IMG/VR virus record: IMGVR_UViG_3300030328_002821
Coordinates: 35,561-58,593 of that record
Strand: one strand, 5' to 3'
Source: a virus
DNA: 23,033 nt
Each line of letters opens with the position of its first letter. Positions within the stretch are counted from its first letter, which is position 1. The notes below the pieces were generated by a model. That model was given only the letters and a program-made list of their open reading frames with translations. It was not told the DNA's origin and searched no databases. Made by a program: the position numbers and the translations under genes. Below are positions 4,213-15,371 of the stretch, in pieces.

Positions 4213-4260
4213 TTATAGACCTTAAAAAATGTAGAGAAAATACGAGGAAAAGTGAGAAAT

Positions 4261-4467
4261 ATGAAATTGATAATAGGAAATGAAACAGGCCATACGGTCT
4301 TTGAAAATATAGAAGCAAGTGAAGTAGTTGACCAAATTAACGACCACCCATCTCATTGGGTTTATCTTAATGGTTTACAAGTAACTAGAGAGCAGGTAAC
4401 TGTAACTGATTGGGATTCAGTAACAGAGGTTAAACTCCTACCCGGAATGCAGGGAGGACTGCAATAA
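4261..4467 (+). CDS. Ubiquitin-like (MoaD/ThiS-type beta-grasp) protein
   Basis: This 68-residue protein has the layout of a MoaD/ThiS-class ubiquitin-like protein: a first beta-hairpin (about 2-17), one helix (about 19-30, EASEVVDQIN), a VYLNG strand (34-38) like the VxVNG of ThiS, and a final DSVTEVKLLP strand (52-61) corresponding to the GDxVxxxPPxxGG end. It ends G65-G66-L67-Q68. In such proteins the Gly-Gly carboxylate is adenylated by an E1-like enzyme for conjugation or sulfur transfer. Here two extra residues would first need removal, a job commonly done by JAMM proteases. An E1-like gene (9748) and a JAMM gene (11180) lie downstream. The ATG at 4261 is preferred to the GTG at 4252. 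The fold is inferred from pattern, not from a search. The next feature is a hairpin-rich gap. Confidence 0.6.
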   Translation: MKLIIGNETGHTVFENIEASEVVDQINDHPSHWVYLNGLQVTREQVTVTDWDSVTEVKLLPGMQGGLQ

Positions 4468-4483
4468 ATACCTAGGGGTATTT
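4466..4483 (+). terminator. Hairpin 1 after the ubiquitin-like gene
   Basis: A perfect 7-base inverted repeat, AAATACC / GGTATTT with loop TAGG, begins at the stop codon of the ubiquitin-like gene. It is followed by AATCTCT rather than a long T-run, so it is not a classic intrinsic terminator. It could be a 3'-end processing or stability element. The right arm also contains TATTTAAT (4479-4486), which could serve as a TATA-like element. Confidence 0.4.
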
Positions 4484-4486
4484 AAT

Positions 4487-4551
4487 CTCTATATGAGGCG
4501 GTAGCACATCCCTCTAATTATTGTGCTACCCCTCAAAAACTCTTTATGAGG
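4487..4551 (+). repeat. 12-base direct repeat flanking hairpin 2
   Basis: CTCTATATGAGG (4487-4498) and CTCTTTATGAGG (4540-4551) match at 11 of 12 positions and lie on either side of the large hairpin. The second copy supplies GAGG, the likely Shine-Dalgarno of the gene starting at 4559; the first copy supplies GAGG used in the hairpin stem. This arrangement lets the same CCTC (4531-4534) pair with either copy. Confidence 0.5.
4495..4534 (+). promoter_or_regulatory. Large hairpin, possible RNA switch before the 4559-nrdJ genes
   Basis: GGTAGCACA (4500-4508) and TGTGCTACC (4522-4530) form a perfect 9-base stem around a 13-base loop. GAGG (4495-4498) and CCTC (4531-4534) extend it by four pairs past one bulged C (4499). 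An alternative pairing, CCTCA (4531-4535) with TGAGG (4547-4551), would hide the ribosome-binding site of the gene at 4559. It sits in the longest non-coding gap of the window (4468-4558). It may be an attenuator, terminator, processing site or small RNA; sequence alone does not decide. Confidence 0.5.
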
Positions 4552-4558
4552 AATTAAA

Positions 4559-4939
4559 ATGTTATGTGATTATGAAAATATATTACCTAATGAAATCTTA
4601 CCTGCTTTATTAAAGTCACAAGGTTGGTTATACCGTGATAGTAAGCAATATAAAGATTATACATTAATGAAACCCGACTTTTATCCTGTTGGATATGTTC
4701 TAGCAGTTAGTATGAAAGCGGTAATTGTTTGTGATGGGGAAACCCTAATCGAATATAAAGACAAATTATACACAGATGTGGAAGACATGATTTCAGAATA
4801 TGGAATTGATGTTATATCCACATTCCATTCTTGGAAATTTTTGGTAGAACGAGAGTGGGTTGTAAAGAAGAACGGTGAGTATGTACATTCCTTTTCTTCA
4901 TGCTACCAAATAGGAAAAAGAAGTAAATTAAGGTGTTAA
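4559..4939 (+). CDS. Unknown 126-residue protein upstream of nrdJ
   Basis: The protein has no signal peptide or membrane segment. It looks alpha/beta, with hydrophobic strands AVSMKAVIVCDG and ISTFHSWKFLV, and ends in a basic, cysteine-containing tail (GKRSKLRC). The ATG has GAGG seven bases upstream, inside the second copy of the 12-base repeat. The gene lies directly before the ribonucleotide reductase gene, so the two are probably co-transcribed and may share the hairpin region as leader. I do not recognise a family. Confidence 0.65.
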   Translation: MLCDYENILPNEILPALLKSQGWLYRDSKQYKDYTLMKPDFYPVGYVLAVSMKAVIVCDGETLIEYKDKLYTDVEDMISEYGIDVISTFHSWKFLVEREWVVKKNGEYVHSFSSCYQIGKRSKLRC

Positions 4940-4941
4940 AG

Positions 4942-6825
4942 ATGAAAGAAATGGAACTACAAAATAAAGTGCTGTCGGAATATAATGTATTTACGAAGTA
5001 CGCTAAATATAAGTCAGAAGAAAATAGAAGAGAATCTTGGGATGAGATTTGTGACAGAAATAAACAAATGCATCTTAAAAAATATGTTAATCTAGGTAAT
5101 TCTCAACTGATTGAAGAGATAGAAAATATATATGAGAACTATGTTAAAACTAGAAAGGTAGTTCCATCAATGAGGTCATTCCAATTTGCAGGTAAACCAA
5201 TAGAATTATCACCCAATAGATTATACAATTGTGCGTATATGCCAATAGACTCTTTAGAGTGTTTTTCTGAATCTATGTTTCTACTGTTAGGTGGTACAGG
5301 TGTAGGTTATTCTGTACAACGTCATCATGTAGAACAATTACCAACTATTAGAAAACCCAATCCTGATAAGTTTAGAAGAATATTAATTAATGATTCTATT
5401 GAAGGTTGGGCTGATGCAATTAAAGTTCTTTTTGAATCATATTTTGGTGCAAGAACATCATCACCAAGTTTTGACTATGATGATATTAGACCTAAAGGTT
5501 CACCGTTAAAAACTAGTGGTGGAAAAGCCCCCGGCCCTGCTCCATTAAAAATAGCATTAGTTAAAATTGAAACAATGTTATTGCAGAAACAAGAAGGAAG
5601 TCAATTGACTCCTTTAGAGTGTCATGATATATTATGTCATATTGCTCATGCTGTTTTATCAGGTGGTATTAGGCGAGCAGCATTAATATCTTTATTTAGT
5701 GCTGATGACAATGAGATGATTAATTGTAAAGCAGGTAAGTGGTATGAACAAAATCCACAAAGAGGTAGAGCGAATAACTCAGCATTCTTACTTAGACATA
5801 GAATAGAAAAAGGATTCTTTGAGGATTTATGGGAAAGAATTAGATTATCTAATTCAGGAGAACCGGGAATTTATTTCTCCCACGATAAAGATTGGGGTAC
5901 AAATCCCTGCTGCGAGATTGCGTTACGACCCTATCAATTCTGCAACTTGACGGAATGTAATGTTTCTGATGTAGTAGACCAAGATGATTTAGAAGAGAGA
6001 GTTAAAGCCGCTACTTTCTTAGGAACTTTGCAAGCAGGTTATACTGACTTCCATTACCTAAGAGAAGTATGGAAAAAGACAACAGAAAAAGATGCATTAT
6101 TAGGTGTGTCAATGACAGGTATAGGTAGTAATAAAGTAACATCTTTGGATATTGAACAAGCAGCAATTGTTGCAAAGAATGAAAATGAGAGAGTTGCTGA
6201 TTTACTTAATATAAATAAAGCAGCAAGAGTTACTTGTATTAAACCATCAGGTACGGCTAGTTGTGTATTAGGAACTTCATCAGGTATTCATCCTTGGTAT
6301 GCTCCATTCTATAATAGAAGAGTTAGAGTGAATAAGGTAGAACCTGTATATCAATATCTATTAAATAAAGTTCCTGAACTAATTGAAGATGACTACTTTA
6401 GTGCTACCGAAGCAGTATTCTCTATACCACAAAAAGCACCTAAAGGTGATGTAATAACTAGACATGAATCCGCTATTGATATGTTAGAACGTGTAAAGCG
6501 TTTCTCTGTTGGTTGGGTTCAGCGTGGTCATAGAGATGGATTAAACACTCACAATGTATCTGCAACAGTTCAAATTCGTGAAGATGAGTGGGAAGGTGTT
6601 GGTGAATGGATGTGGTTAAATAGACATTATTACAATGGTCTAGCAGTTTTACCATATGATACAGGTTCTTATAAACAAGCACCATTTGAAGAAATATCTG
6701 AAAGTGAATACAATGGAATGTATGATAAACTTTCTGATTTAGATTTTAAAGAAGTTAAAGAATATGAAGACTATACCGATTTACAAGGAGAAGTTGCCTG
6801 TGCAGGTGGAGTTTGCGAAATATGA
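4942..6825 (+). CDS. nrdJ: Class II (adenosylcobalamin-dependent) ribonucleotide reductase
   Basis: This enzyme reduces ribonucleotides to deoxyribonucleotides and would supply dNTPs for viral DNA synthesis. From the ATG at 4942 it is 627 residues, shorter than the roughly 740-residue Lactobacillus-type monomeric enzyme. Visible hallmarks are YNCAYMP with the first active-site Cys (residue 97), the glycine-rich GGTGVGYSVQ, LSGGIRRAAL, NPCCEI with the Asn-Cys-Glu radical site (usual form NPCGE), and a partner Cys 11 residues on (FCNLTE). Also present are KPSGTASCVLGTSSGIHPWY and a C-terminal ACAGGVCEI, the CxxxxC redox shuttle. The pattern is that of monomeric class II enzymes, which need no NrdB subunit and work with or without oxygen. 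A GTG at 4933 is in frame, but the ATG is better spaced after AAGG. Confidence 0.93.
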   Translation: MKEMELQNKVLSEYNVFTKYAKYKSEENRRESWDEICDRNKQMHLKKYVNLGNSQLIEEIENIYENYVKTRKVVPSMRSFQFAGKPIELSPNRLYNCAYMPIDSLECFSESMFLLLGGTGVGYSVQRHHVEQLPTIRKPNPDKFRRILINDSIEGWADAIKVLFESYFGARTSSPSFDYDDIRPKGSPLKTSGGKAPGPAPLKIALVKIETMLLQKQEGSQLTPLECHDILCHIAHAVLSGGIRRAALISLFSADDNEMINCKAGKWYEQNPQRGRANNSAFLLRHRIEKGFFEDLWERIRLSNSGEPGIYFSHDKDWGTNPCCEIALRPYQFCNLTECNVSDVVDQDDLEERVKAATFLGTLQAGYTDFHYLREVWKKTTEKDALLGVSMTGIGSNKVTSLDIEQAAIVAKNENERVADLLNINKAARVTCIKPSGTASCVLGTSSGIHPWYAPFYNRRVRVNKVEPVYQYLLNKVPELIEDDYFSATEAVFSIPQKAPKGDVITRHESAIDMLERVKRFSVGWVQRGHRDGLNTHNVSATVQIREDEWEGVGEWMWLNRHYYNGLAVLPYDTGSYKQAPFEEISESEYNGMYDKLSDLDFKEVKEYEDYTDLQGEVACAGGVCEI

Positions 6826-7109
6826 GATATAGGTCAAAACTAAATAGAGAAGAGTTTCTAGAAATAGAGCAAGAAATATATGATATGTTTTCTGATGATG
6901 TAGTTAAATCTAATGTGCAGAAGAGATTCAATCAGTTGAGGGATGACAATATGTCTCCCCTAACATTTATGCATAACCTACTGAGAACAATGAATACTAT
7001 CAATAACATACCGAGGGATGTAGCCCTCACAAAAATAGTGGAAACACATGAATATAAAAAATATAAAGAGAGGAATATAAATGAAGATAATGTACGAAAA
7101 AACACCTAA
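6822..7109 (+). CDS. Small helical protein, unknown
   Basis: This 95-residue protein starts at an ATGA overlap with the reductase stop and is preceded by GGTGGAG. It is charged and appears all-helical, with no cysteines. The position suggests translational coupling with the reductase, but nothing in the sequence links it to nucleotide metabolism. It overlaps the next gene by 29 bases. No family is recognised. Confidence 0.65.
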   Translation: MRYRSKLNREEFLEIEQEIYDMFSDDVVKSNVQKRFNQLRDDNMSPLTFMHNLLRTMNTINNIPRDVALTKIVETHEYKKYKERNINEDNVRKNT

Positions 7110-7341
7110 GAGTGTATTAATAAAAGAATATAGAAAGATGCTAAGTCAAAATAAAAGTAATTTTACTAACAGGTATAATACCCCTGACTGTCTGCCTTCA
7201 TTGAAGAGACCTGTTGTTACTGGTAAATCAATGAGTTGGATAGAGTTTTCTAGATTAAACAGAGAACAGGTTGCTGTTCATTGTTTCCTAGAAGGTCTAA
7301 CAATAGATGGTGTAGAAACTGTTTGTGATGAAGAGGAATGA
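7081..7341 (+). CDS. Small basic-to-acidic protein, unknown
   Basis: This 86-residue protein has a basic N-terminal half (EYRKMLSQNK, KRPVVTGK), a helical second half and an acidic end (CDEEE). GAGAGGA before the ATG at 7081 is a good Shine-Dalgarno. The final Glu codons (GAAGAGGAA) also lie where a ribosome-binding site for the next gene would be. The function is unknown. Confidence 0.65.
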   Translation: MKIMYEKTPKSVLIKEYRKMLSQNKSNFTNRYNTPDCLPSLKRPVVTGKSMSWIEFSRLNREQVAVHCFLEGLTIDGVETVCDEEE

Positions 7342-8606
7342 ATATGAAAATTAAAATGAGAATAGGGAGAGTAGGTGATAGTGGTTCTTATGATGAAACA
7401 AGTTTTCTTTTTCGTTCCACTAAAAAACCGAAATGGCGTAGACTGAATCGATTCGGTGAAAGTGTAATAGTTTCTGAACGTGCTCCAAGCACTAATAAAA
7501 CATTAGACCCTGTATTTGAAGGGTTAGTGAATACAATAGGTAAAGATTTATTGCCTACAACAAAGGAATGGAAATATTATGATAATGTAACTGCTATAAT
7601 GACATTCAAGAGGGATGATGGTAACACGACATTAGTTTTCCAAAAGAATAAACCTCATTTTTATCTGAATGGTAATAAAATGAATAAGACAATTATAATG
7701 GCTAATTTGGCTAGGATAATTTATCGTGCTTGTTATGAGAGAAGTAGTAAAAGATTGGATAGTTATGTTACAAGAGTTATGACATTCCCACCAAATGTTA
7801 TTCATGCTATGGAAAATAGAACACCATATTCTTTTTTTGAAGAGGGTATGATTAAACATGAGGTTATGATTAATACTAAAGCAATCTCAGATAAGGAATG
7901 TGCATTAGAAATTTCTGATGGTGTTTGGGCTAATATAACAGTTAACGATTTAAATTCATTCATTAACTTTCATAGGTTTAAACATAAAAGGTCAGAAAAG
8001 TGGGGTGTGTCTCCTGAAGTCTTGTGGAATAAATTACTCAATGTAGAACCTACTGACTCACAGTCTAAAATGATGAGAGCATTCCTGATACAGAATAGAA
8101 CACAAGCATTAGTAGAACGGAGAGCAAAAGAATTGATGTCTGATTTAGAGCAAAATTATCCTGATAAGATTAAGTTGTTTAAAGTTCATTGGCATAACGT
8201 AGATAAAAGTAAGACTAAGTTGGGTATGTTTGTTAGAGGTACTAGATGTGATTGGATTTTACTGGAAAAAACTGGTAGTAGTTCAAGCACACAAAAAGTA
8301 ATTACAGGTAGATTTATTCCTCTTCATATGAGTGGTGAAGGTGCGAAAGGTTATGCTCTTACTGTCGTGGATGAGAGTATTCCAAATGGATATAGAATGT
8401 TAGGTATGTTAGAAAGTACTTGCATTGATAATGTTCATAAGAACTCTAGTTTAGGTGACCAATTTGCATCTAGAGCAATGACTTTAATGAATGATGAGTT
8501 CGCTGCTACACTTGTAAGTACCATTCATCTACCTAAGATGGAAACTAGAATACCTGATGAATATATACAGAATCTTGATGAGAATACACAGAGGGATTTA
8601 AAGTGA
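7338..8606 (+). CDS. Large unknown protein (422 residues)
   Basis: One of the longest unassigned genes here. It has no signal peptide, membrane segment or cysteine cluster. The N-terminal part is basic (STKKPKWRRLNR). The middle has a helical unit (about residues 115-150) with several Arg and Lys residues. The C-terminal third has a beta-like section (FIPLHMSGEGAKGYALTVVDE) and ends with MNDEFAATLVSTIHLPK. No Walker, nuclease or metal-binding motif is evident. It starts at an ATGA junction and ends overlapping the TFB start codon (GTGA), so it is probably co-translated with TFB. It might be a structural or transcription-linked protein, but I have no positive evidence. Confidence 0.75.
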   Translation: MNMKIKMRIGRVGDSGSYDETSFLFRSTKKPKWRRLNRFGESVIVSERAPSTNKTLDPVFEGLVNTIGKDLLPTTKEWKYYDNVTAIMTFKRDDGNTTLVFQKNKPHFYLNGNKMNKTIIMANLARIIYRACYERSSKRLDSYVTRVMTFPPNVIHAMENRTPYSFFEEGMIKHEVMINTKAISDKECALEISDGVWANITVNDLNSFINFHRFKHKRSEKWGVSPEVLWNKLLNVEPTDSQSKMMRAFLIQNRTQALVERRAKELMSDLEQNYPDKIKLFKVHWHNVDKSKTKLGMFVRGTRCDWILLEKTGSSSSTQKVITGRFIPLHMSGEGAKGYALTVVDESIPNGYRMLGMLESTCIDNVHKNSSLGDQFASRAMTLMNDEFAATLVSTIHLPKMETRIPDEYIQNLDENTQRDLK

Positions 8607-9505
8607 AATGTATAGAATGTGAATCAGAAAGAAATATATTTGATGAGAGATTAGGGGAAAAGGTTTGTTTAGATTGTGGCTTAGTCTTAGTTAAAAATAT
8701 ATTTGAAAATACCATTAAAGGTAGTGATTATGATTTAACTAGTAGAGAGTACAAAGGTGCTCCTAACAAGTCTTGGGATTTAGGCTCAACAATACATAAG
8801 TCTGATGTTAATAGATTTGGTGTAACAGGTAGAAAATTGTTCTTCACTCAAAAGTTTAACAACCCTTTAAATGAATCTTATTTGAGGATGTTAAAAGTTT
8901 CACAAATGAACTTATCATATTATAATGTTGATTCTGTATTGAAAAGTAGAGTTAGTAAATATTATAATTTATTATTGAAGTCTCAAACCTTTCGTTCTGT
9001 ACCAATAGATAATAGAGCAGCAAGCCTAACATATTTTATTCTTAGAGAAGCAGGTATCGCTGTTACAGTTCAGAAACATTCTGAGATAACTAAAATACCT
9101 CGTAATGAAATATCTAAATATGCTAGAGTCATTGCTTCAAAGTTAAGAAAACCTTGGATATTTTCTCAAATAAATATTGAAGGGTTAATTCAAGAAGTAG
9201 GTTCTAAATTATATTTACCTAATCCTGAATATATAGGAGATGTCAGTAAACTATCAGAACACGTTCATAGGAAATTAGATATGCATAGTATCCAATTTAC
9301 TACTGCAACACTTTCTGCTTGCTTTTATTTAGTATCTATTTTCAGGAGAGAAAATTATACTCAGCATGAAATCGCTACTTTAGTAGGTACGACAGAAGTT
9401 TCTTTGAGGAAAAACATGAAAAAGATTTTGTCTTTGTATAATATAGACAAGAAATTGTTGAATTATATTACATTAAATGATTTCATTAATGGAATTAGGA
9501 AGTAA
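8603..9505 (+). CDS. tfb: TFB-family archaeal transcription initiation factor
   Basis: This 300-residue protein has the TFIIB/TFB layout. There is an N-terminal zinc ribbon (C3, C6, C22, C25; CIEC and CLDCG) and a B-finger-like segment with SWDLGSTI at about 57-64. Two cyclin-like repeats follow (about 95-182 and 190-285); the second carries a helix-turn-helix (YTQHEIATLVGTTEVSLRK, 252-270) of the kind that reads the BRE. TFB bridges TBP on promoter DNA and RNA polymerase, so a viral copy could redirect host polymerase to viral promoters. The start is GTG: the first zinc Cys is residue 3, so no later start works, and GAGGGA lies upstream. It is divergent but intact in length. No TBP is seen in the window. 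Confidence 0.88.
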   Translation: MKCIECESERNIFDERLGEKVCLDCGLVLVKNIFENTIKGSDYDLTSREYKGAPNKSWDLGSTIHKSDVNRFGVTGRKLFFTQKFNNPLNESYLRMLKVSQMNLSYYNVDSVLKSRVSKYYNLLLKSQTFRSVPIDNRAASLTYFILREAGIAVTVQKHSEITKIPRNEISKYARVIASKLRKPWIFSQINIEGLIQEVGSKLYLPNPEYIGDVSKLSEHVHRKLDMHSIQFTTATLSACFYLVSIFRRENYTQHEIATLVGTTEVSLRKNMKKILSLYNIDKKLLNYITLNDFINGIRK

Positions 9506-9509
9506 TTTT

Positions 9510-9746
9510 ATGGATAGTGATAGAGGATTCTGGAAAAAATGGAGAAATTCTCATAATTATGATATTGGCTATAAGGGATATACCGTGTTAAAAGGCAGAT
9601 ATGTTAAAGTAACGGTAGTTGATATGGAATATTATGAGTCATCTCCTGAAAAGATATGGAGATATGTAGTAGCAACAGATTGGGGTTATAAATTAAAGAG
9701 GGTTTCACTCTTTACAAAAAAGGAAACAATAGAATGGAGTAGTTAA
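9510..9746 (+). CDS. Small beta-rich protein, unknown
   Basis: From the ATG at 9510 (after AGGAAG) this is a 78-residue protein. In-frame starts at 9477 and 9489 lie inside the TFB gene and are less likely. The sequence is aromatic and basic at the start (RGFWKKWRN) and beta-like afterwards (RYVKVTVVDMEYY, IWRYVVATDWGYKLKRVSLF). It sits one base before the E1-like gene and may be co-translated with it. No family is recognised. Confidence 0.6.
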   Translation: MDSDRGFWKKWRNSHNYDIGYKGYTVLKGRYVKVTVVDMEYYESSPEKIWRYVVATDWGYKLKRVSLFTKKETIEWSS

Positions 9747-9747
9747 A

Positions 9748-10323
9748 ATGAAGAGAAAGATAATGATAATAGGTGCAGGTGGTATAGGTAGTATGTTAAT
9801 ACATAATTTAGAAAGGTTAGGTATTTATGACATAACTGTTTTTGATGATGATAAGGTAGAGAAAAAGAATTTAACTTATCAACATTATAATGAAAGTCAC
9901 TTAGGAGAGAATAAAGCAATAGCGATTAGTAATCAGTTTAGTGGTGTTAAGGCAGAACCGTATTTAGTTTTAGTACCAAAACAATTGAAAGGTTATGACT
10001 TAGTTATTTGTTGTGCAGATAATTTAGTGGTTAGAAGGTTGCTTTATATGGAAGGCGTAGGTGATGATACTAACGTGAAGTGGTTAGACTTGAGAGCACA
10101 AGGTAGGAATGCTGTGTTAATATCATATTTATTTAATCCTGAATTAATTGATACTGTATTAACAGGTGAAGATGGTTCTTTTTCCTGTCAAGCAGGTGAT
10201 TGGGATGGAACACCTAGAGGTGTTAACATGATGAATAATGTGATTGCTGCAATGGCAGGACAATGGATTCAGAAATGGTTTAACCAAGAAGAGGTTGAAC
10301 CTAGTATGGTGATTAGTATATGA
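9748..10323 (+). CDS. E1-like (ThiF/MoeB/PRTRC-ThiF-type) adenylating enzyme
   Basis: This 191-residue protein has the E1 superfamily Rossmann core: G9-A-G-G-I-G-S15 for ATP, an acidic strand end VFDDDKVEKKNL (32-42), GENKA (53-57) with the conserved Lys, and CCADNLVVRR (88-97) matching the C-x-DN-x-xxR segment of MoeB/ThiF. These enzymes adenylate the C-terminal glycine of a ubiquitin-like protein and may pass it to a Cys. A candidate catalytic Cys is C147 in SFSCQAG, followed by GVNMMNNVIAAMAGQ, typical of the family. Odd points: the usual NLxRQ arginine is Tyr (NLTYQ), and the CxxC zinc pairs of MoeB are absent. It is shorter than MoeB (about 250) and resembles compact phage, plasmid or PRTRC ThiF proteins. 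Likely partners are the ubiquitin-like protein at 4261 and the JAMM protein at 11180. Confidence 0.85.
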   Translation: MKRKIMIIGAGGIGSMLIHNLERLGIYDITVFDDDKVEKKNLTYQHYNESHLGENKAIAISNQFSGVKAEPYLVLVPKQLKGYDLVICCADNLVVRRLLYMEGVGDDTNVKWLDLRAQGRNAVLISYLFNPELIDTVLTGEDGSFSCQAGDWDGTPRGVNMMNNVIAAMAGQWIQKWFNQEEVEPSMVISI

Positions 10324-10562
10324 TTGAAGAGATTGACGATGATTTAGATTTTGCCGAAGAAGACATTGAAAAAATAATAAATATTATTTCAAAGGAAGGT
10401 GTCTTTCTTAGAGCAGCAATAGTTAGGGTACATTGTCCTACTTGTGGTGAAGAGTTCATAGGAACTAAAAGACACGCAGGTGGGTTCATAGCAGGGCATG
10501 AAGCATATCATGAGTTTTGTTTCAAATCTGATTTATTTATAGCACAAACAGGTGGTCTATAA
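10320..10562 (+). CDS. C2H2-like zinc-finger protein ending in Gly-Gly-Leu
   Basis: This 80-residue protein has an acidic helical N-terminus (DDDLDFAEEDIEKII) and then C39-x2-C42-x17-H60-x3-H64, close to C2H2 spacing, with C67 nearby. It ends TGGL, so it has Gly-Gly one residue from the C-terminus. That could be chance, but the gene overlaps the E1-like gene by four bases (ATGA). It does not look like a beta-grasp ubiquitin-like protein. It could be an accessory or substrate of the E1-like enzyme; this is only inference from position. Confidence 0.65.
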   Translation: MIEEIDDDLDFAEEDIEKIINIISKEGVFLRAAIVRVHCPTCGEEFIGTKRHAGGFIAGHEAYHEFCFKSDLFIAQTGGL

Positions 10563-10825
10563 TGGGATTAGAAGATTGGAAAATTAAACATGATAACACA
10601 AAGTGGACTGATGAATACCCAACCGAGTTTGGTATGACAAGTTTCTTGAAGGACAAGATATTTGCTGTATCCAATACAGGTAAAAGTGTTTTAGTTCATA
10701 TGATGAATGGTCAAACATTTACTATAACTATTAAAAATAGTCCAATACCCTTTTTTAAGGATAATGGATTAACTAATGAAATCGCAATACAAGAATTAAA
10801 AGGTGAGAAAAATGAAAAAGAATAA
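10562..10825 (+). CDS. Small protein, unknown
   Basis: This 87-residue protein starts at a TAATG junction. It has a WKIKHDNTKW segment, a beta-like middle (IFAVSNTGKSVLVHMMNGQTF) and a charged tail (KGEKNEKE). The central pattern is reminiscent of small beta-barrels, but no family is recognised. It lies between the E1-like and JAMM genes, so a link with that system is possible. Confidence 0.6.
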   Translation: MGLEDWKIKHDNTKWTDEYPTEFGMTSFLKDKIFAVSNTGKSVLVHMMNGQTFTITIKNSPIPFFKDNGLTNEIAIQELKGEKNEKE

Positions 10826-11183
10826 AGGAAATAAAGGAAAATGGAATGAAACCGAAGTAGCAATGCTTTGTGATTATTTGGATGAAGGTTTAAGTGTTGA
10901 AGACATAGCAGAGCGATTTGTTGATATCAGAACTTTAGCACAAATAAAAACTAAAATTAAATCTAAGGCTATACAAGAAAGGCATATAGATTCAGATATA
11001 GAAGAAATGCATGAAGACTTAGATAAAGAAGAAGAGATGGAAGAACACTTAGAAAAAGTAAAAGATGTTCTAGAAGAAAAAATAGCAGAAGTTAAGAAAA
11101 CTAATAACAAGATGATGTTTAGATTAGTTCTAATTACAGCAGTTGGTATTGGTGTATTAATACAAATGGGGATAATAAAATGA
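10812..11183 (+). CDS. SANT/Myb-like, coiled-coil, tail-anchored protein
   Basis: From the ATG at 10812 (GGTGAG upstream; GTG at 10803 is an alternative) this is a 123-residue protein. Residues 10-53 (KWNETEVAMLCDYLDEGLS and on through the IAERF helix) look like a SANT/Myb helix-turn-helix with the typical leading Trp. Residues about 58-97 are a very acidic coiled coil. Residues 102-122 (MFRLVLITAVGIGVLIQMG) form one C-terminal membrane helix. A DNA-binding-like head with a membrane tail could tether DNA or a complex to the membrane. The domain call is from pattern only. Confidence 0.6.
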   Translation: MKKNKGNKGKWNETEVAMLCDYLDEGLSVEDIAERFVDIRTLAQIKTKIKSKAIQERHIDSDIEEMHEDLDKEEEMEEHLEKVKDVLEEKIAEVKKTNNKMMFRLVLITAVGIGVLIQMGIIK

Positions 11184-11755
11184 AGATAAAAAATAGTGAA
11201 GAAGAGTTTAGCAAGAATGATATATTATATAAGAATATAATGGAAGATGTAGTTAAAGATACAGTATGGAAACAACGAATTAAAGATTTATGGGAAGTAT
11301 GTTCTGAATCTATGGTTTGGGTATATCCTGATTTAAGTACAGAAGCGTTTCTGAGTGAAATATACAAACAATCTACTGAGCATTTTGATATTGCTAGAGA
11401 GGTACAAGTAATAGTAGATTCTAATAATAATCTATTTATGAGTGTTGGTACTCCGGGGTTTGTGTCTTTTGCAAATCAAGATGATGAGTTGTTTGAAGAT
11501 AGAGAACCTATGAGATTACCTATTAAATGTTGGATACATACACATCCTAACATGAGTGCCTATTTTAGTGGTACAGATTGGAGAACAATTGATACTTGGA
11601 AAGGTAGTATGGAAAGTGCTATTGTTCTAGGTCAAGGAGAAATGTGGGCTTATGATTGTGAAACAGAAATAGGTAGACATACCTCATTTATGAAAATCAA
11701 TAGTGAAATGAGTAGAAACTATAATAAAATGAATCAAGGAGTTGAAGAAGAATGA
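11180..11755 (+). CDS. JAMM/MPN+ metalloprotease
   Basis: This 191-residue protein has a complete JAMM zinc site: H120-x-H122-x7-S130-x2-D133 (HTHPNMSAYFSGTD). This is the signature of zinc isopeptidases such as Rpn11, AMSH, archaeal HvJAMM1, Mec+ and phage or plasmid JAB proteins. The upstream strand REVQVIVD (about 73-80) and the downstream SAIVLGQGEMWAYD strand fit the fold. JAMM proteases cut after the Gly-Gly of ubiquitin-like proteins, either maturing precursors or removing conjugates. The ubiquitin-like protein at 4261 ends GGLQ and is an obvious candidate substrate. It starts at an ATGA junction three genes after the E1-like gene. No NlpC/P60 domain is fused, unlike tail-assembly JAB proteins. 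Confidence 0.85.
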   Translation: MKIKNSEEEFSKNDILYKNIMEDVVKDTVWKQRIKDLWEVCSESMVWVYPDLSTEAFLSEIYKQSTEHFDIAREVQVIVDSNNNLFMSVGTPGFVSFANQDDELFEDREPMRLPIKCWIHTHPNMSAYFSGTDWRTIDTWKGSMESAIVLGQGEMWAYDCETEIGRHTSFMKINSEMSRNYNKMNQGVEEE

Positions 11756-12623: not shown

Positions 12624-12855
12624 AAGAATAGTAGTTAGAGTACCGCGTTCTGCTACAACTGAGTTATTGGTTGTAACAGGTAATTATTGGAATATTGATG
12701 TATTAGATATTCGTTGGTATGAAAATGGTAAGCCAACCAAAAAGGGCATTAGAATGAATATAGACGAAGCCAAGTCTCTAAATAAGGCACTAAGGAGAGC
12801 GTTAAATGATAATATCAATAAGAACAATGAAGAAACAATTGAAGAGGAAGATTAA
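12613..12855 (+). CDS. PC4-like ssDNA-binding/transcription coactivator domain protein
   Basis: This 80-residue protein matches the PC4/p15 core pattern. A beta-sheet (VVRVP, ELLVVTGNYW) leads to IDVLDIRWYENGKPTKKGIR, like the iDiRxyy...kPTkKGIsL stretch of PC4, then a helix (DEAKSLNKALRRALN). The tail is acidic. PC4-fold proteins bind ssDNA or melted duplex as dimers and act in transcription or replication; small PC4-like proteins occur in archaea, bacteria and phages. GGGGG lies eight bases before the ATG. The next gene, histone-like, overlaps its end by 50 bases, which suggests coupled expression of two DNA-binding proteins. Confidence 0.6.
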   Translation: MKNERIVVRVPRSATTELLVVTGNYWNIDVLDIRWYENGKPTKKGIRMNIDEAKSLNKALRRALNDNINKNNEETIEEED

Positions 12856-13039
12856 ACAAGGAACATATATTAGTGCAGATGTTTATTCTGTTATAGAAAA
12901 GTATATGCATTGGAGTTTAAGTGAACTAAATTTAGAAATTGCTAAGATATATGCTGAAAGTGGTGACAGAAAAATCACTACTACCCATGTAGAAAAAGCA
13001 ATACTAAATTTAGTCTTAACTAGGTCAGAAGAGGAATAA
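12806..13039 (+). CDS. Histone-fold protein
   Basis: This 77-residue protein has a basic N-terminus (KKQLKRKIKQ), then ISADVYSVIEKYMHWSLSEL, a long helix EIAKIYAESGD, a basic loop RKITTTHV and a last helix EKAILNLV. Length and order match the histone fold (short helix, long helix, short helix). It can be lined up without gaps with archaeal histones such as HMfB, including VSxD at the start and the K-x-I loop before the last helix. The Asp usual after the second loop is His here. Such a protein would dimerise and wrap or bend DNA. The ATG at 12806 has AAGGAGAG at good spacing; ATG 12827 is possible. The very acidic C-terminus is unusual for a short archaeal histone. No database comparison was made. 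Confidence 0.6.
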   Translation: MIISIRTMKKQLKRKIKQGTYISADVYSVIEKYMHWSLSELNLEIAKIYAESGDRKITTTHVEKAILNLVLTRSEEE

Positions 13040-13138: not shown

Positions 13139-13240
13139 ATGGATAAAGAAAGAAGAGAGAATATGAAAATACTCATGGAACTTATGAATAGAAATAAGAA
13201 ACATGATGCTGAAAGATTAGCGAGATTGGAGGAAGAGTAA
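13139..13240 (+). CDS. 33-residue charged helical microprotein
   Basis: The product MDKERRENMKILMELMNRNK plus a short tail is a single charged helix ending EEE. It is preceded by GAGGAAGAA, and its stop overlaps the ligase ATG (TAATG); its final codons TTGGAGGAAGAG form the ligase ribosome-binding site. It may act as a translational coupling leader for ligase. The function is otherwise unknown. Confidence 0.4.
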   Translation: MDKERRENMKILMELMNRNKKHDAERLARLEEE

Positions 13241-14886
13241 TGTATGCTATTCAAGCAGGTAGTCTAAGTAATTTTGCTAATGTTTGTGAAATACTTGAAT
13301 TTAAAACACCTAATGAAAAGGCTCAAACTATCTCTGATAATTTAAGTACATTTGCTTCTAAACCATTAGTGATGCAGGTGTTTTCTTTAGAGTATCCTAC
13401 TAATAATATTGGTAATATTAAAGCGGTATCTTGGATTGCTTCGGCATTAGGGTTATTTGACGATGAAGTTAAAACTGCTGCTAAAATGTGGGGTGATTTA
13501 GGAGAAGGATTATATCAAATGTATGAGGGTGAAAATAATCATTCTGATATTACATTTGGTGAGTTTTATTCTTTATTACTTTTAGATTGTTCCTCTATTA
13601 GTAATTCTTCATATGAGGTTTTTGCATCTGCACTTAGGCAAATGTCTGCTTTAGAGTTGAAGTGGTTTGTAAGATATTGGTTAAGAAAACCTAGAAATGG
13701 TGTGAATAATAAGATACCATTGAAAGCATTAGCATTACATTACAGAAATGATGATGCTACTATATACAAATATGCTCAATATAATTCAGCAAGTGAAATC
13801 TGTTCTAGTCTAGAATCAGGTCATGCTCCCGAATGTAAGTTGTGTCATGGGCAGTTTGTGCAACCTATGTTAGCGAAGCCTCGTAAAGGTAAAGAAAGAC
13901 CTACTAATTATTATGTAGATGTTAAGTATGATGGAAATAGGTATCAAATTCATAAAAACTCTTCTAGTGTTATAATCTTTAATCGTAAAGGTAAAATTGT
14001 AACAGAACAATTTCCTGATATTGAGGAACAAATACTAGAATTAGAAGTGGATGATTTCATAATTGATACTGAAATCTATCCTATCAATATAGATGGAACA
14101 CCTGCACCTCATAAGAAGATGGGTAAGCGTGTTCATAAAATAGATAAAGAACAAGCAGTAAGAGAGTGTCCTGTTAAAATGGTAGCGTTTGATATATTGT
14201 ATTGGAAAAATGTAAGTTACTTAGAATTACAATTTAAAGATAGGCTAGAAAGATTACATTGGTTATTATCAGAAGATTTGATAGCACAAAGTTTCCCCAA
14301 CCAAACAATACAAGGTGCATATAATACTGCAATTAGTTTAGGTTTTGAAGGTATAATGATAAAAGATTTAGATATGACATATCAAGCAGGTAAAAGAAGT
14401 AATGCTTGGTTAAAATATAAACCTGCTAGAATAAGTTTGGATGTTGTAATAACAACTGCTACTTATGGTACAGGAGATAGGTCAGATGTATTTGGTTCTT
14501 TTGGTATATCATTAAAAAATATTGGTTACCATCCCGCCCCAAGAAAGAATATGCCTGAAAGTATACCTCATGGTGGTGATAAAATATTGGTAAATTTGAC
14601 AGGAAACAGAGGTGAAGAATATGTTTCTATTGGTTCTGTTGGTACAGGACTTTCTAGATTGGATTTGCTAAACTTAACAACTAACTTGAAAAAGAACGTA
14701 TCTTCATATGATAATGGGGTATTTACTTTCTTACCAAGAATTGTGTTAGAAGTAACTGCTGATTTAGTAACACAAGATGCTGATGGTAACTATGGTCTTA
14801 GATTTCCTAGAGTAGTTAGGATAAGAGATGATAAGTTTGCTAAAGATATAGACACACTTCAAACTGCACAGAGGATGATACTTTGA
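13240..14886 (+). CDS. lig: ATP-dependent DNA ligase
   Basis: This 548-residue protein has the archaeal/eukaryotic ligase I layout: an N-terminal DNA-binding domain (about 1-200), the nucleotidyltransferase core and a C-terminal OB domain. The motif I lysine is K229 in KYDGNR, motif Ia is NRKGK (248-252), motif III is IDTEIYPI, motif IIIa MVAFDILYW, motif IV EGIMIKDL and motif V WLKYKP. It joins nicks using ATP through a ligase-AMP intermediate and would seal Okazaki fragments in viral replication. Length is typical for archaeal ligases (about 560). Start ATG overlaps the preceding stop, with GGAGG upstream. All key motifs appear intact. Confidence 0.93.
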   Translation: MYAIQAGSLSNFANVCEILEFKTPNEKAQTISDNLSTFASKPLVMQVFSLEYPTNNIGNIKAVSWIASALGLFDDEVKTAAKMWGDLGEGLYQMYEGENNHSDITFGEFYSLLLLDCSSISNSSYEVFASALRQMSALELKWFVRYWLRKPRNGVNNKIPLKALALHYRNDDATIYKYAQYNSASEICSSLESGHAPECKLCHGQFVQPMLAKPRKGKERPTNYYVDVKYDGNRYQIHKNSSSVIIFNRKGKIVTEQFPDIEEQILELEVDDFIIDTEIYPINIDGTPAPHKKMGKRVHKIDKEQAVRECPVKMVAFDILYWKNVSYLELQFKDRLERLHWLLSEDLIAQSFPNQTIQGAYNTAISLGFEGIMIKDLDMTYQAGKRSNAWLKYKPARISLDVVITTATYGTGDRSDVFGSFGISLKNIGYHPAPRKNMPESIPHGGDKILVNLTGNRGEEYVSIGSVGTGLSRLDLLNLTTNLKKNVSSYDNGVFTFLPRIVLEVTADLVTQDADGNYGLRFPRVVRIRDDKFAKDIDTLQTAQRMIL

Positions 14887-15371
14887 TTGATGTAGATATG
14901 ATGACTATAATTGATGATTGGCCGTATAAATGTATTAGGATTTATCAGGGTACAGCAATATTACAAGCCGTAGGTAACACAAATAAAACAATTGAAGTTG
15001 AGATAGATACCTGTCCCTATATTGATTCTGAAACACAGAAACTAATTGTACCAAGTAATGCTTTAGTTATTAAAGCAAAGATTAAGAAACAAAAAAGGCA
15101 TAAGGCTAAGACTATTGATATAATGAAGATAATAAAAGAAGATGTTGATATATCAATATCTAGGGATTTAGTTTATTTTGTGCGTGACCATATTGAAACT
15201 CTTATTGCTAACTTAGCAGTAGAGGCTCAAAATAATGCAATTAGAAACGGTGATAAGCGACTAGCACCTAGACATTGGTACTGGTTGGAAGTTCCAATAC
15301 ACGGTACACAGCATATTGTGCGTGAACAAGATGAAATTGCGTCAGATATTAAAATGAATTATTGGGAGTGA
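14883..15371 (+). CDS. Unknown protein with possible C-terminal histone-like fold
   Basis: This 162-residue protein has a beta-rich N-terminal half (about 1-75) ending in a basic patch (KIKKQKRHKAK). The helical C-terminal part (92-131: ISRDLVYFVRDHIETL, a long helix ending in NAIRNGDK, loop RLAPRH) lines up without gaps over 40 residues with the histone-fold protein at 12806. It keeps the IS-x-D start, a central Leu and Glu, the GD-basic-basic loop and the final His. Identity is only about 8 of 40, so it is suggestive, not proof. The start could be TTG at 14883 (GAGG eight bases upstream, overlapping the ligase stop) or ATG at 14898 or 14901. It may be a histone-like partner or just a helical DNA-binding domain. 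Confidence 0.6.
   Translation: MIDVDMMTIIDDWPYKCIRIYQGTAILQAVGNTNKTIEVEIDTCPYIDSETQKLIVPSNALVIKAKIKKQKRHKAKTIDIMKIIKEDVDISISRDLVYFVRDHIETLIANLAVEAQNNAIRNGDKRLAPRHWYWLEVPIHGTQHIVREQDEIASDIKMNYWE

Follow-up and report, generated by a model that had tools for sequence, protein, structure and literature searches.

What is usually described for viruses is that they steal, mimic or block one component or another of the ubiquitin system of their hosts. Can a virus also carry such a system of its own? This question is raised by a 23,033-nucleotide stretch of viral DNA (the window), which covers bases 35561-58593 of record IMGVR_UViG_3300030328_002821 (58,593 bases, or 58.6 kb, in all). Within it lie genes for a small ubiquitin-like protein (Ubl, here called the tag), an E1/ThiF-like enzyme and a JAMM metalloprotease, together with a gene for a 422-residue protein whose C-terminal domain is an E2-like candidate. 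We consider it probable that these genes make up a putative virus-encoded pathway for ubiquitin-like conjugation and deconjugation.

The tag, the E1-like enzyme, the JAMM protease and an E2-like candidate

The four genes and their key codons are located as follows.

4261..4467, plus strand: ubiquitin-like tag, 68 residues (beta-grasp model, Foldseek and VIA-align; relatives in 83/111 sources, including the window)
4453..4464, plus strand: codons of G65-G66 and of the tail L67-Q68 (GG in 64/64 distinct tags, tail of 0-2 residues)
7338..8606, plus strand: 422-residue protein, C-terminal domain (about residues 253-412) an E2-like candidate (72/72 full loci; model; host homology; E2 rows in VIA-align)
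8421..8423, plus strand: codon of invariant Cys362, candidate tag-accepting cysteine (70/70 rows)
9748..10323, plus strand: E1/ThiF-like enzyme, 191 residues (PF00899 ThiF, E 9e-19)
10186..10188, plus strand: codon of the candidate catalytic residue Cys147, invariant and within an SCQ motif (76/76 viral rows)
11180..11755, plus strand: JAMM metalloprotease, 191 residues (E74 and HxH-x7-S-x2-D in 81/81)
11537..11578, plus strand: JAMM motif, H120 to D133 (invariant residues in the alignment)

Searches of Pfam, PHROGs, NCBIfam and PDB with the tag sequence yielded no family and nothing useful. An AlphaFold (AF2) model built from an alignment of 47 relatives has a predicted local distance difference test score (pLDDT) of 88.8 and a predicted template modeling score of 0.73, and follows the beta-grasp order b-b-a-b-b-a-b. 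The top Foldseek rows for this model were mostly ubiquitin, NEDD8, SUMO, ThiS and MoaD (best E 5e-3, none below 0.001). VIA-align placed MoaD first (Z 5.7, 63 residues, 3.3 A); Z reached 5 or more in only 2 of 996 chains, and the top 50 also included a few protein G rows. All 64 distinct viral tags have a C-terminal Gly-Gly, which is followed by no residue in 8, by one in 25 and by two in 31. The tail residues are of many kinds, and the C-terminus reads as a constant cleavage site followed by residues that are free to vary. Having a predicted beta-grasp fold and a terminal di-glycine, the two features looked for in a ubiquitin-like modifier, the protein is a putative modifier of this type. Its open reading frame (ORF) has an alternative GTG start at 4252, and the alignment of relatives starts at the ATG of 4261.

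The E1-like enzyme matches PF00899 at 68 bits, above the cut-off of 28.1. Its best NCBIfam match, PRTRC_ThiF (E 1e-15), scores 57.7 bits and is far below the cut-off of 144.75, and the match to the UbaA family NF047750 gives 35.5 bits against a cut-off of 450. The best PDB sequence match is Cap2 (5e-8), and the closest PDB and PADLOC matches are Cap2 / E1-E2; in PADLOC-DB the tag, the 422-residue protein and the JAMM protease matched no family at E 0.01. Residues K56, C89, D91, R116, R120 and C147 are invariant in all 76 rows of the alignment (77 before a short row was dropped), and the position of Cys147 is also Cys in the E1 rows of the host and of Methanoperedens. By analogy with MoeB, we take K56 and D91 to belong to the nucleotide site and C147 to be the candidate catalytic residue.

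In the JAMM protease, E74, H120, H122, S130 and D133 are invariant in 81/81 rows (82 less a short one). The match to Pfam Prok-JAB (E 2e-4, 21.6 bits) falls below the Pfam cut-off of 25, which is a database threshold and not a biological feature. A family profile of 37 relatives matched AMSH-type JAMM proteases at 1e-5, and the best NCBIfam match, PRTRC_A, scored 16 bits against a cut-off of 101.8. A tblastn search of 50,697 phage records, a set that does not include two named magrovirus records, gave no match to the E1 at 1e-5, an absence that says little, and for JAMM the best were two records at E 0.08.

The original prediction, which was made from the letters of the window, had named a ubiquitin-like, an E1-like and a JAMM gene. 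Open reading frames of 68, 191 and 191 residues are found where it placed them, the small protein was modeled as a beta-grasp and not as another fold, and the other two identities are borne out by the ThiF match above cut-off and the full JAMM motif. Its statement that no E2 is recognizable needs amending in view of the candidate at 7338-8606.

Cys362 is the sole invariant cysteine of the 422-residue family, whose alignment was reduced from 74 distinct sequences to 70 rows when short rows were dropped. It lies within the motif GPICIDN..SxGDQ...ND, and the candidate catalytic Cys is also kept in 14/14 host E2-like rows. In the structural model (pLDDT 89.0), whose topology looks E2-like, a helix precedes four strands and an inserted hairpin; the Cys stands where a strand ends and is followed by helices. 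In VIA-align, used as a second look at this model, 48 of 50 rows were E2 enzymes by title, with residues 253-419 aligned at Z 3.9-4.6. A comparison of the viral family with 14 host domains by hhalign gave 97.2% (E 4e-11, 135 columns) and set Cys on Cys; the profile comparison with only four host rows gave 57.7%. When compared with E2 profiles, the viral and host invariant Cys both fell on the E2 Cys, as two control profiles did not.

Several results count against the E2 reading. The VIA-align Z does not exceed 4.6, and the other two rows are Mediator subunits (Z 4.0-4.2). Foldseek returned nothing below E 0.05; its best E2 row, E2-25K, had the highest probability of the rows listed (0.69) and stood at rank 9 with E 0.15. 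The eight rows ahead of it are unrelated, with lower E values and probabilities of at most 0.23. No Pfam E2 family (UQ_con) was among the matches listed for the 61 viral members (25 of 36 families) or the 14 host members, and no E2 was found in PDB sequence searches. Comparison of the profiles with four E2s was non-significant, with probabilities of 0.9 and 1.4%, and the His-Pro-Asn motif that precedes the Cys was not seen in the viral or host alignments. Because of the missing motif, the missing UQ_con match and the non-significant profile comparison, we use the label "E2-like" only. The domain is a candidate, neither a proven E2 nor one to be filed under an E2 family, and taken by itself the E2 assignment is weak.

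Linkage in viral relatives and a related gene set in archaea

Relatives were collected from IMG/VR by an E1 scan (29 loci) and a JAMM scan (best 80 of 103). Together with the window these gave 110 sources, i.e., 109 loci, some from the same contigs, and the window; a row with the same DNA as the window (L110) was dropped. Removal of near-copies before alignment left 47 rows for the tag, 35 for alignment A2, 37 of 45 picked for JAMM and 61 for the viral 422-residue protein. The tag, E1 and JAMM genes are all present, on the same strand and in the same order, in 82 of the 110 sources, which agrees with the co-occurrence that the original prediction expected. The remaining 28 are too short to decide: the available sequence either extends no further than 4.9 kb upstream of E1 or breaks off at, or short of, E1 or JAMM. 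E1 and JAMM are separated by -27 to 1511 bases. In a set of 72 loci that were chosen for holding both tag and JAMM, and from which 12 repeat loci of the same contigs had been removed, E1, the TFB-like gene and the 422-residue gene are always present.

An independent marker, the RFC-like gene, was used to draw 80 further loci (best 80 of 574 relatives; some contigs are shared with the earlier set). Where at least 8 kb of upstream DNA was available, E1, JAMM and the 422-residue gene were found in 31/31 loci; with 5.5-8 kb (n=8), E1 was reached in 2 and JAMM in 4. The tag, which lies too far from the RFC marker for this test, was found in 1/31. In the loci examined, E1, JAMM, the 422-residue gene and, where testable, the tag are thus constant and syntenic. 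Comparison with three close relatives gave ratios of nonsynonymous to synonymous substitution rates (dN/dS) of 0.20-0.36 for all four genes (for the 422-residue gene dS exceeds 1, near saturation). The four genes are under purifying selection, with their active-site residues kept. Magrovirus-type E1, JAMM and E2-like genes also occur in contig NZMJ01000073.1 (L113), which was binned as a Maricaulis metagenome-assembled genome (MAG) and is probably a misbinned virus.

The virus itself can be placed by its other genes. On one strand of the window are genes for a ribonucleotide reductase and an ATP-dependent DNA ligase, for a family B DNA polymerase (PolB) and an AAA protein resembling the RFC small subunit, and for a TFB-like factor. 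Outside the window the record encodes, mostly on the opposite strand, a terminase-like protein and a capsid protein of SU10 type. Replication genes of archaeal type (PolB, RFC-S, TFB and ligase) stand opposite a head-tail module, an arrangement that matches published descriptions of Magrovirales, the viruses of marine Poseidoniales (PMC10768690, PMC12999244). By gene content and layout, on which the name rests, the window looks like the replication half of a tailed virus of Magrovirales type.

When genome contigs were searched with the E1 alignment as a profile, the closest cellular relatives (best 80 of 128) came mainly from MAGs titled Poseidoniaceae, Poseidoniales, Poseidonia or Euryarchaeota, followed by Methanoperedens and a Methanosarcinales genome. 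Three host loci (L126, L148 and L156) carry tag, E1 and JAMM back to back, preceded by a gene of about 345 residues with the same ..CID..GD.. domain (E2like-UBL-E1-JAMM). We then surveyed 145 genomes of the order to which the L126 genome belongs, including genomes behind MAGs titled Poseidonia and Poseidoniaceae. A tag was detected in 69, JAMM in 71, the E2-like gene in 76 and the specific E1 in 69, the latter being defined by E <1e-35 and well separated from the next matches at 1e-16. All four parts occur together in 60 genomes, three in 11, two in 4 and one in 4, and 66 have none. The E2-like gene is present in 67 of the 69 tag-bearing genomes. A canonical E2 (PF00179) over cut-off was found in 0/145 genomes, and a sub-threshold match in 26/145. 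Some ThiF protein at E 1e-10 or better is present in 133/145, and most have a separate ThiF match of MoeB/UbaA size.

Host tags are often repeated: 43 of the 69 tag-bearing genomes have tandem in-frame units, two in 29 genomes, three in 13 and four in 1. Those units whose sequences were read end in GG, or AG in some genomes. The tag is also fused to the enzymes. Tag-tag-E1 is a single ORF in G136 and G107 (by sequence) and in G041 (by coordinates), and E1-JAMM is a single ORF, by coordinates, in G037, G074, G081, G102 and G135. Fused partners normally work together.

Parts of this set recur in other proteins. Host loci (L217-L223, e.g., L220:433-2934) encode large proteins, in frames of 435-850 residues, that have an E2-like domain and in most cases N-terminal zinc-ribbon-like paired cysteines; an expanded family of substrate-selecting enzymes is possible. 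A UBL-E2-like fusion in L207, suggested by eye, was dropped when the E2-like profile found none. The E2-like domain also forms the end of the gene that immediately precedes E1 in three contigs from Methanoperedens/Methanosarcinales (profile E 2.5e-4, 1.5e-3 and 0.09). The gene after E1 in Methanoperedens contigs ends in KGG by eye, and the tag profile gave it no support as a tag (E 0.66 at best).

In the E1 tree, the viral E1s fall on one side of a branch (support 98/99) and the host-order E1s form another clade (99/97), which also contains a truncated row, O_L139, from a MAG titled Euryarchaeota archaeon UBA258. Support for viruses and hosts as sister groups is weak (86/43); Methanoperedens comes next, and all are set apart from other ThiF rows (99/97). 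Long branches meet in this tree, as the tool warned. The viral tags are 20-35% identical to those of L126. Because of the separate E1 clades and this low tag identity, we regard the viral set as diverged from the host set. A recent capture from the host was rejected, since the viral E1 lineage stands apart from the host E1s, and the viral set looks like a parallel pathway.

A proposed pathway and its alternatives

From the genes, their motifs, linkage and homology, we infer the following chemical steps and targets. The JAMM protease would strip the 0-2 residues past the Gly-Gly of the tag, an activity already proposed in the original prediction and one that fits the 56 of 64 distinct viral tags with one or two such residues; the other 8 have none. 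The E1-like enzyme would adenylate the freed Gly-Gly with ATP and then form a thioester, probably on C147 of the SCQ motif, as family chemistry and invariance of this residue suggest. C362 in the C-terminal domain of the 422-residue protein may take over the tag and hand it to substrates, which is the least certain step. JAMM might also free substrates of the tag again, so that marking would be reversible. The pathway may serve to re-label proteins of the host or the virus, either to have them degraded or to protect them, or it may interfere with host tags.

That the genes serve one pathway, as had also been predicted, is argued by their co-occurrence in viruses, the back-to-back host set, and the tag-tag-E1 and E1-JAMM fusions of the host. 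Other observations pull the opposite way. The tag lies 2.4-8.1 kb from E1 in the viruses, and no E3 was identified, zinc-ribbon neighbors having been considered as candidates. Only one to three parts occur in 19/145 host-order genomes, and the pairwise Fisher p values for the host parts (9e-27 to 1e-33) ignore kinship and MAG incompleteness.

The doubt about the E2 step leads to an explanation that we regard as rather unlikely, in which, as has been proposed for archaeal SAMPs, the E1 itself would load the Ubl onto substrates and the 422-residue protein is a co-factor, target or regulator. General ThiF-type E1s can work without an E2, the 422-residue protein has no significant sequence link to E2s, and the host order lacks a canonical E2 over cut-off. 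This explanation leaves aside the invariant Cys362, the homologue beside the tag in host operons and in nearly every tag-bearing genome, and a VIA-align list dominated by E2s. Sulfur transfer is, in our estimate, improbable. Here the tag would receive sulfur as a thiocarboxylate at its C-terminus, to be used in tRNA thiolation or in making cofactors. JAMM would only mature the tag or cut adducts, as in CysO/Mec+ or TtuB-like systems. The E1 does belong to the ThiF family, and in its fold the tag comes nearest both to carriers of the MoaD/ThiS type and to ubiquitin. No sulfur-transfer partner was noticed among the genes of the window and the rest of the record, which were not searched systematically, and the hosts mostly have the separate MoeB/UbaA-sized ThiF match. 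Tandem tags and a Cys-bearing partner would be unexpected for a sulfur carrier, and because of these features and the fusions we favor tagging.

The kit could also serve to disarm the related host system, e.g., with JAMM stripping host tags while the viral tag and E1 act as decoys. A homologous system is indeed present in the host order, and Borg JAMM proteins were proposed, in the passages of PMC12660748 that deal with them, to be deSAMPylases that remove host SAMP marks. A protease alone would be enough for this purpose, whereas the tag, E1 and E2-like proteins keep their active-site residues under purifying selection; active tagging is also compatible with counter-defense. We judge this explanation very unlikely. 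A role in tail assembly without conjugation, on the model of the Ubl/JAB pair that the relevant part of PMC1779556 describes in lambdoid tail clusters, can hardly be entertained for genes that lie in a replication module together with an E1 and that recur as the same set in cellular genomes.

Beyond the pathway itself, we put forward a broader claim whose chances appear evenly balanced: that magroviruses are the first viruses with an entire ubiquitin-like cascade (tag, E1, E2-like protein and deconjugating protease), orthogonal to the polyubiquitin-like system of Poseidoniales and re-labeling proteins of the infected cell, and that the E2-like domain is a new family of the virus, the host order and Methanoperedens contigs. 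In three papers about these viruses (PMC10160649, PMC5332604, PMC5628999), a word search of the main text found no mention of ubiquitin, ThiF or JAB. The relevant passages of the RaFAH paper (PMC8276007) count a MoeB/ThiF protein among the auxiliary genes that are most prevalent in archaeal viruses and link it to ubiquitination. This is probably the same E1-like gene, and those passages do not include a tag, JAMM, E2-like gene or host counterpart. The part of PMC4327156 on a marine group II genome reports a different set, a UCH protease with RING proteins. A complete set in a virus, or poly-tags in Poseidoniales, was not found described in a survey that did not include three central magrovirus papers (Philosof 2017, Zhou 2023, Prabhu 2025), so that priority is not established.

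If true, a virus group that maintains a tag, an activator, a probable conjugator and a de-tagging protease of its own would represent a different viral strategy, found in viruses of an archaeal group that is abundant in the ocean. About half of the sampled genomes of the host order have tandem, polyubiquitin-like genes alongside E1, JAMM and several E2-like proteins, which bears on the diversification of ubiquitin systems. The viral and the host kit each comprise only four proteins and lend themselves to laboratory tests.

Neighboring genes and known systems

A neighbor that is not part of the pathway lies between the E2-like gene and E1.

8603..9505, plus strand: TFB-like transcription factor gene, kept in 72/72 full loci (PRK00423, E 4e-16, below cut-off)

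A ribonucleotide reductase gene (PF02867; 4933-6825) follows directly past the viral tag region. In the host loci L126 (11116-14811) and L148, a large gene that by eye resembles class II ribonucleotide reductase adjoins JAMM on the other strand. ATP-dependent DNA ligase is encoded twice in the virus: the gene at 13240-14886 of the window belongs to the replication module, and a second, for an 849-residue protein, lies in the head gene cluster (L111:5075-7624, minus strand). Histone-fold signals at 14883-15371 and 12806-13039 of the window are weak and both under Pfam cut-offs (PF00808, E 0.0067; CENP-X, E 0.09). Nine proteins of the structural cluster (L111:8616-10062 and L112:3347-10296, minus strand, same virus record) begin with the motif SWxx(I/L/V) or MWFD(I/V)LK, and three of them look like paralogues; two further proteins of this cluster end in WGDIH/WDDIH. 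Such terminal motifs, found in 0/39 window ORFs, could be a virion-sorting tag. Between the terminase-like gene and a gene that is portal-like by eye lies L111:13374-14744 (minus strand), whose product is LAGLIDADG-like by eye, with no Pfam support.

Each known system resembles the viral set in part. The PRTRC plasmid cluster supplies the best NCBIfam match of both the E1 and JAMM, but both are far under the curated cut-offs. The archaeal SAMP/UbaA/HvJAMM1 system also has a Ubl with C-terminal Gly-Gly, a ThiF-type E1 and a JAMM protease; the viral E1 is far from the UbaA cut-off, and the host set adds an E2-like partner and tandem tags. Type II cyclic oligonucleotide-based anti-phage signaling systems (CBASS; Cap2/Cap3) contain the closest PDB and PADLOC matches of the viral E1. 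Here, in contrast, the other three proteins have no PADLOC match, no cGAS-like gene was noticed, and a dedicated Ubl gene is present.

In the Bil system (BilABCD), as outlined in the relevant part of PMC11354881, the Ubl, E1, E2 and JAMM proteins are likewise encoded together, and BilA has two Ubl domains. Bil is a bacterial anti-phage defense, whereas here the kit is in a virus and a related kit in the host order. For PolyUbl operons of bacteria, the same part of PMC11354881, citing Iyer et al., gives a tandem Ubl, an E2-like domain, JAB, E1 and a JAB-E1 fusion, and Poseidoniales genomes have the same ingredients, i.e., tandem Ubl, E2-like, E1 and JAMM proteins and E1-JAMM fusions. Compared by description only, the PolyUbl operons differ in being bacterial and in having an E2-like domain that is reported to be inactive, whereas the system reported here is archaeal and viral, and its candidate catalytic Cys is invariant.

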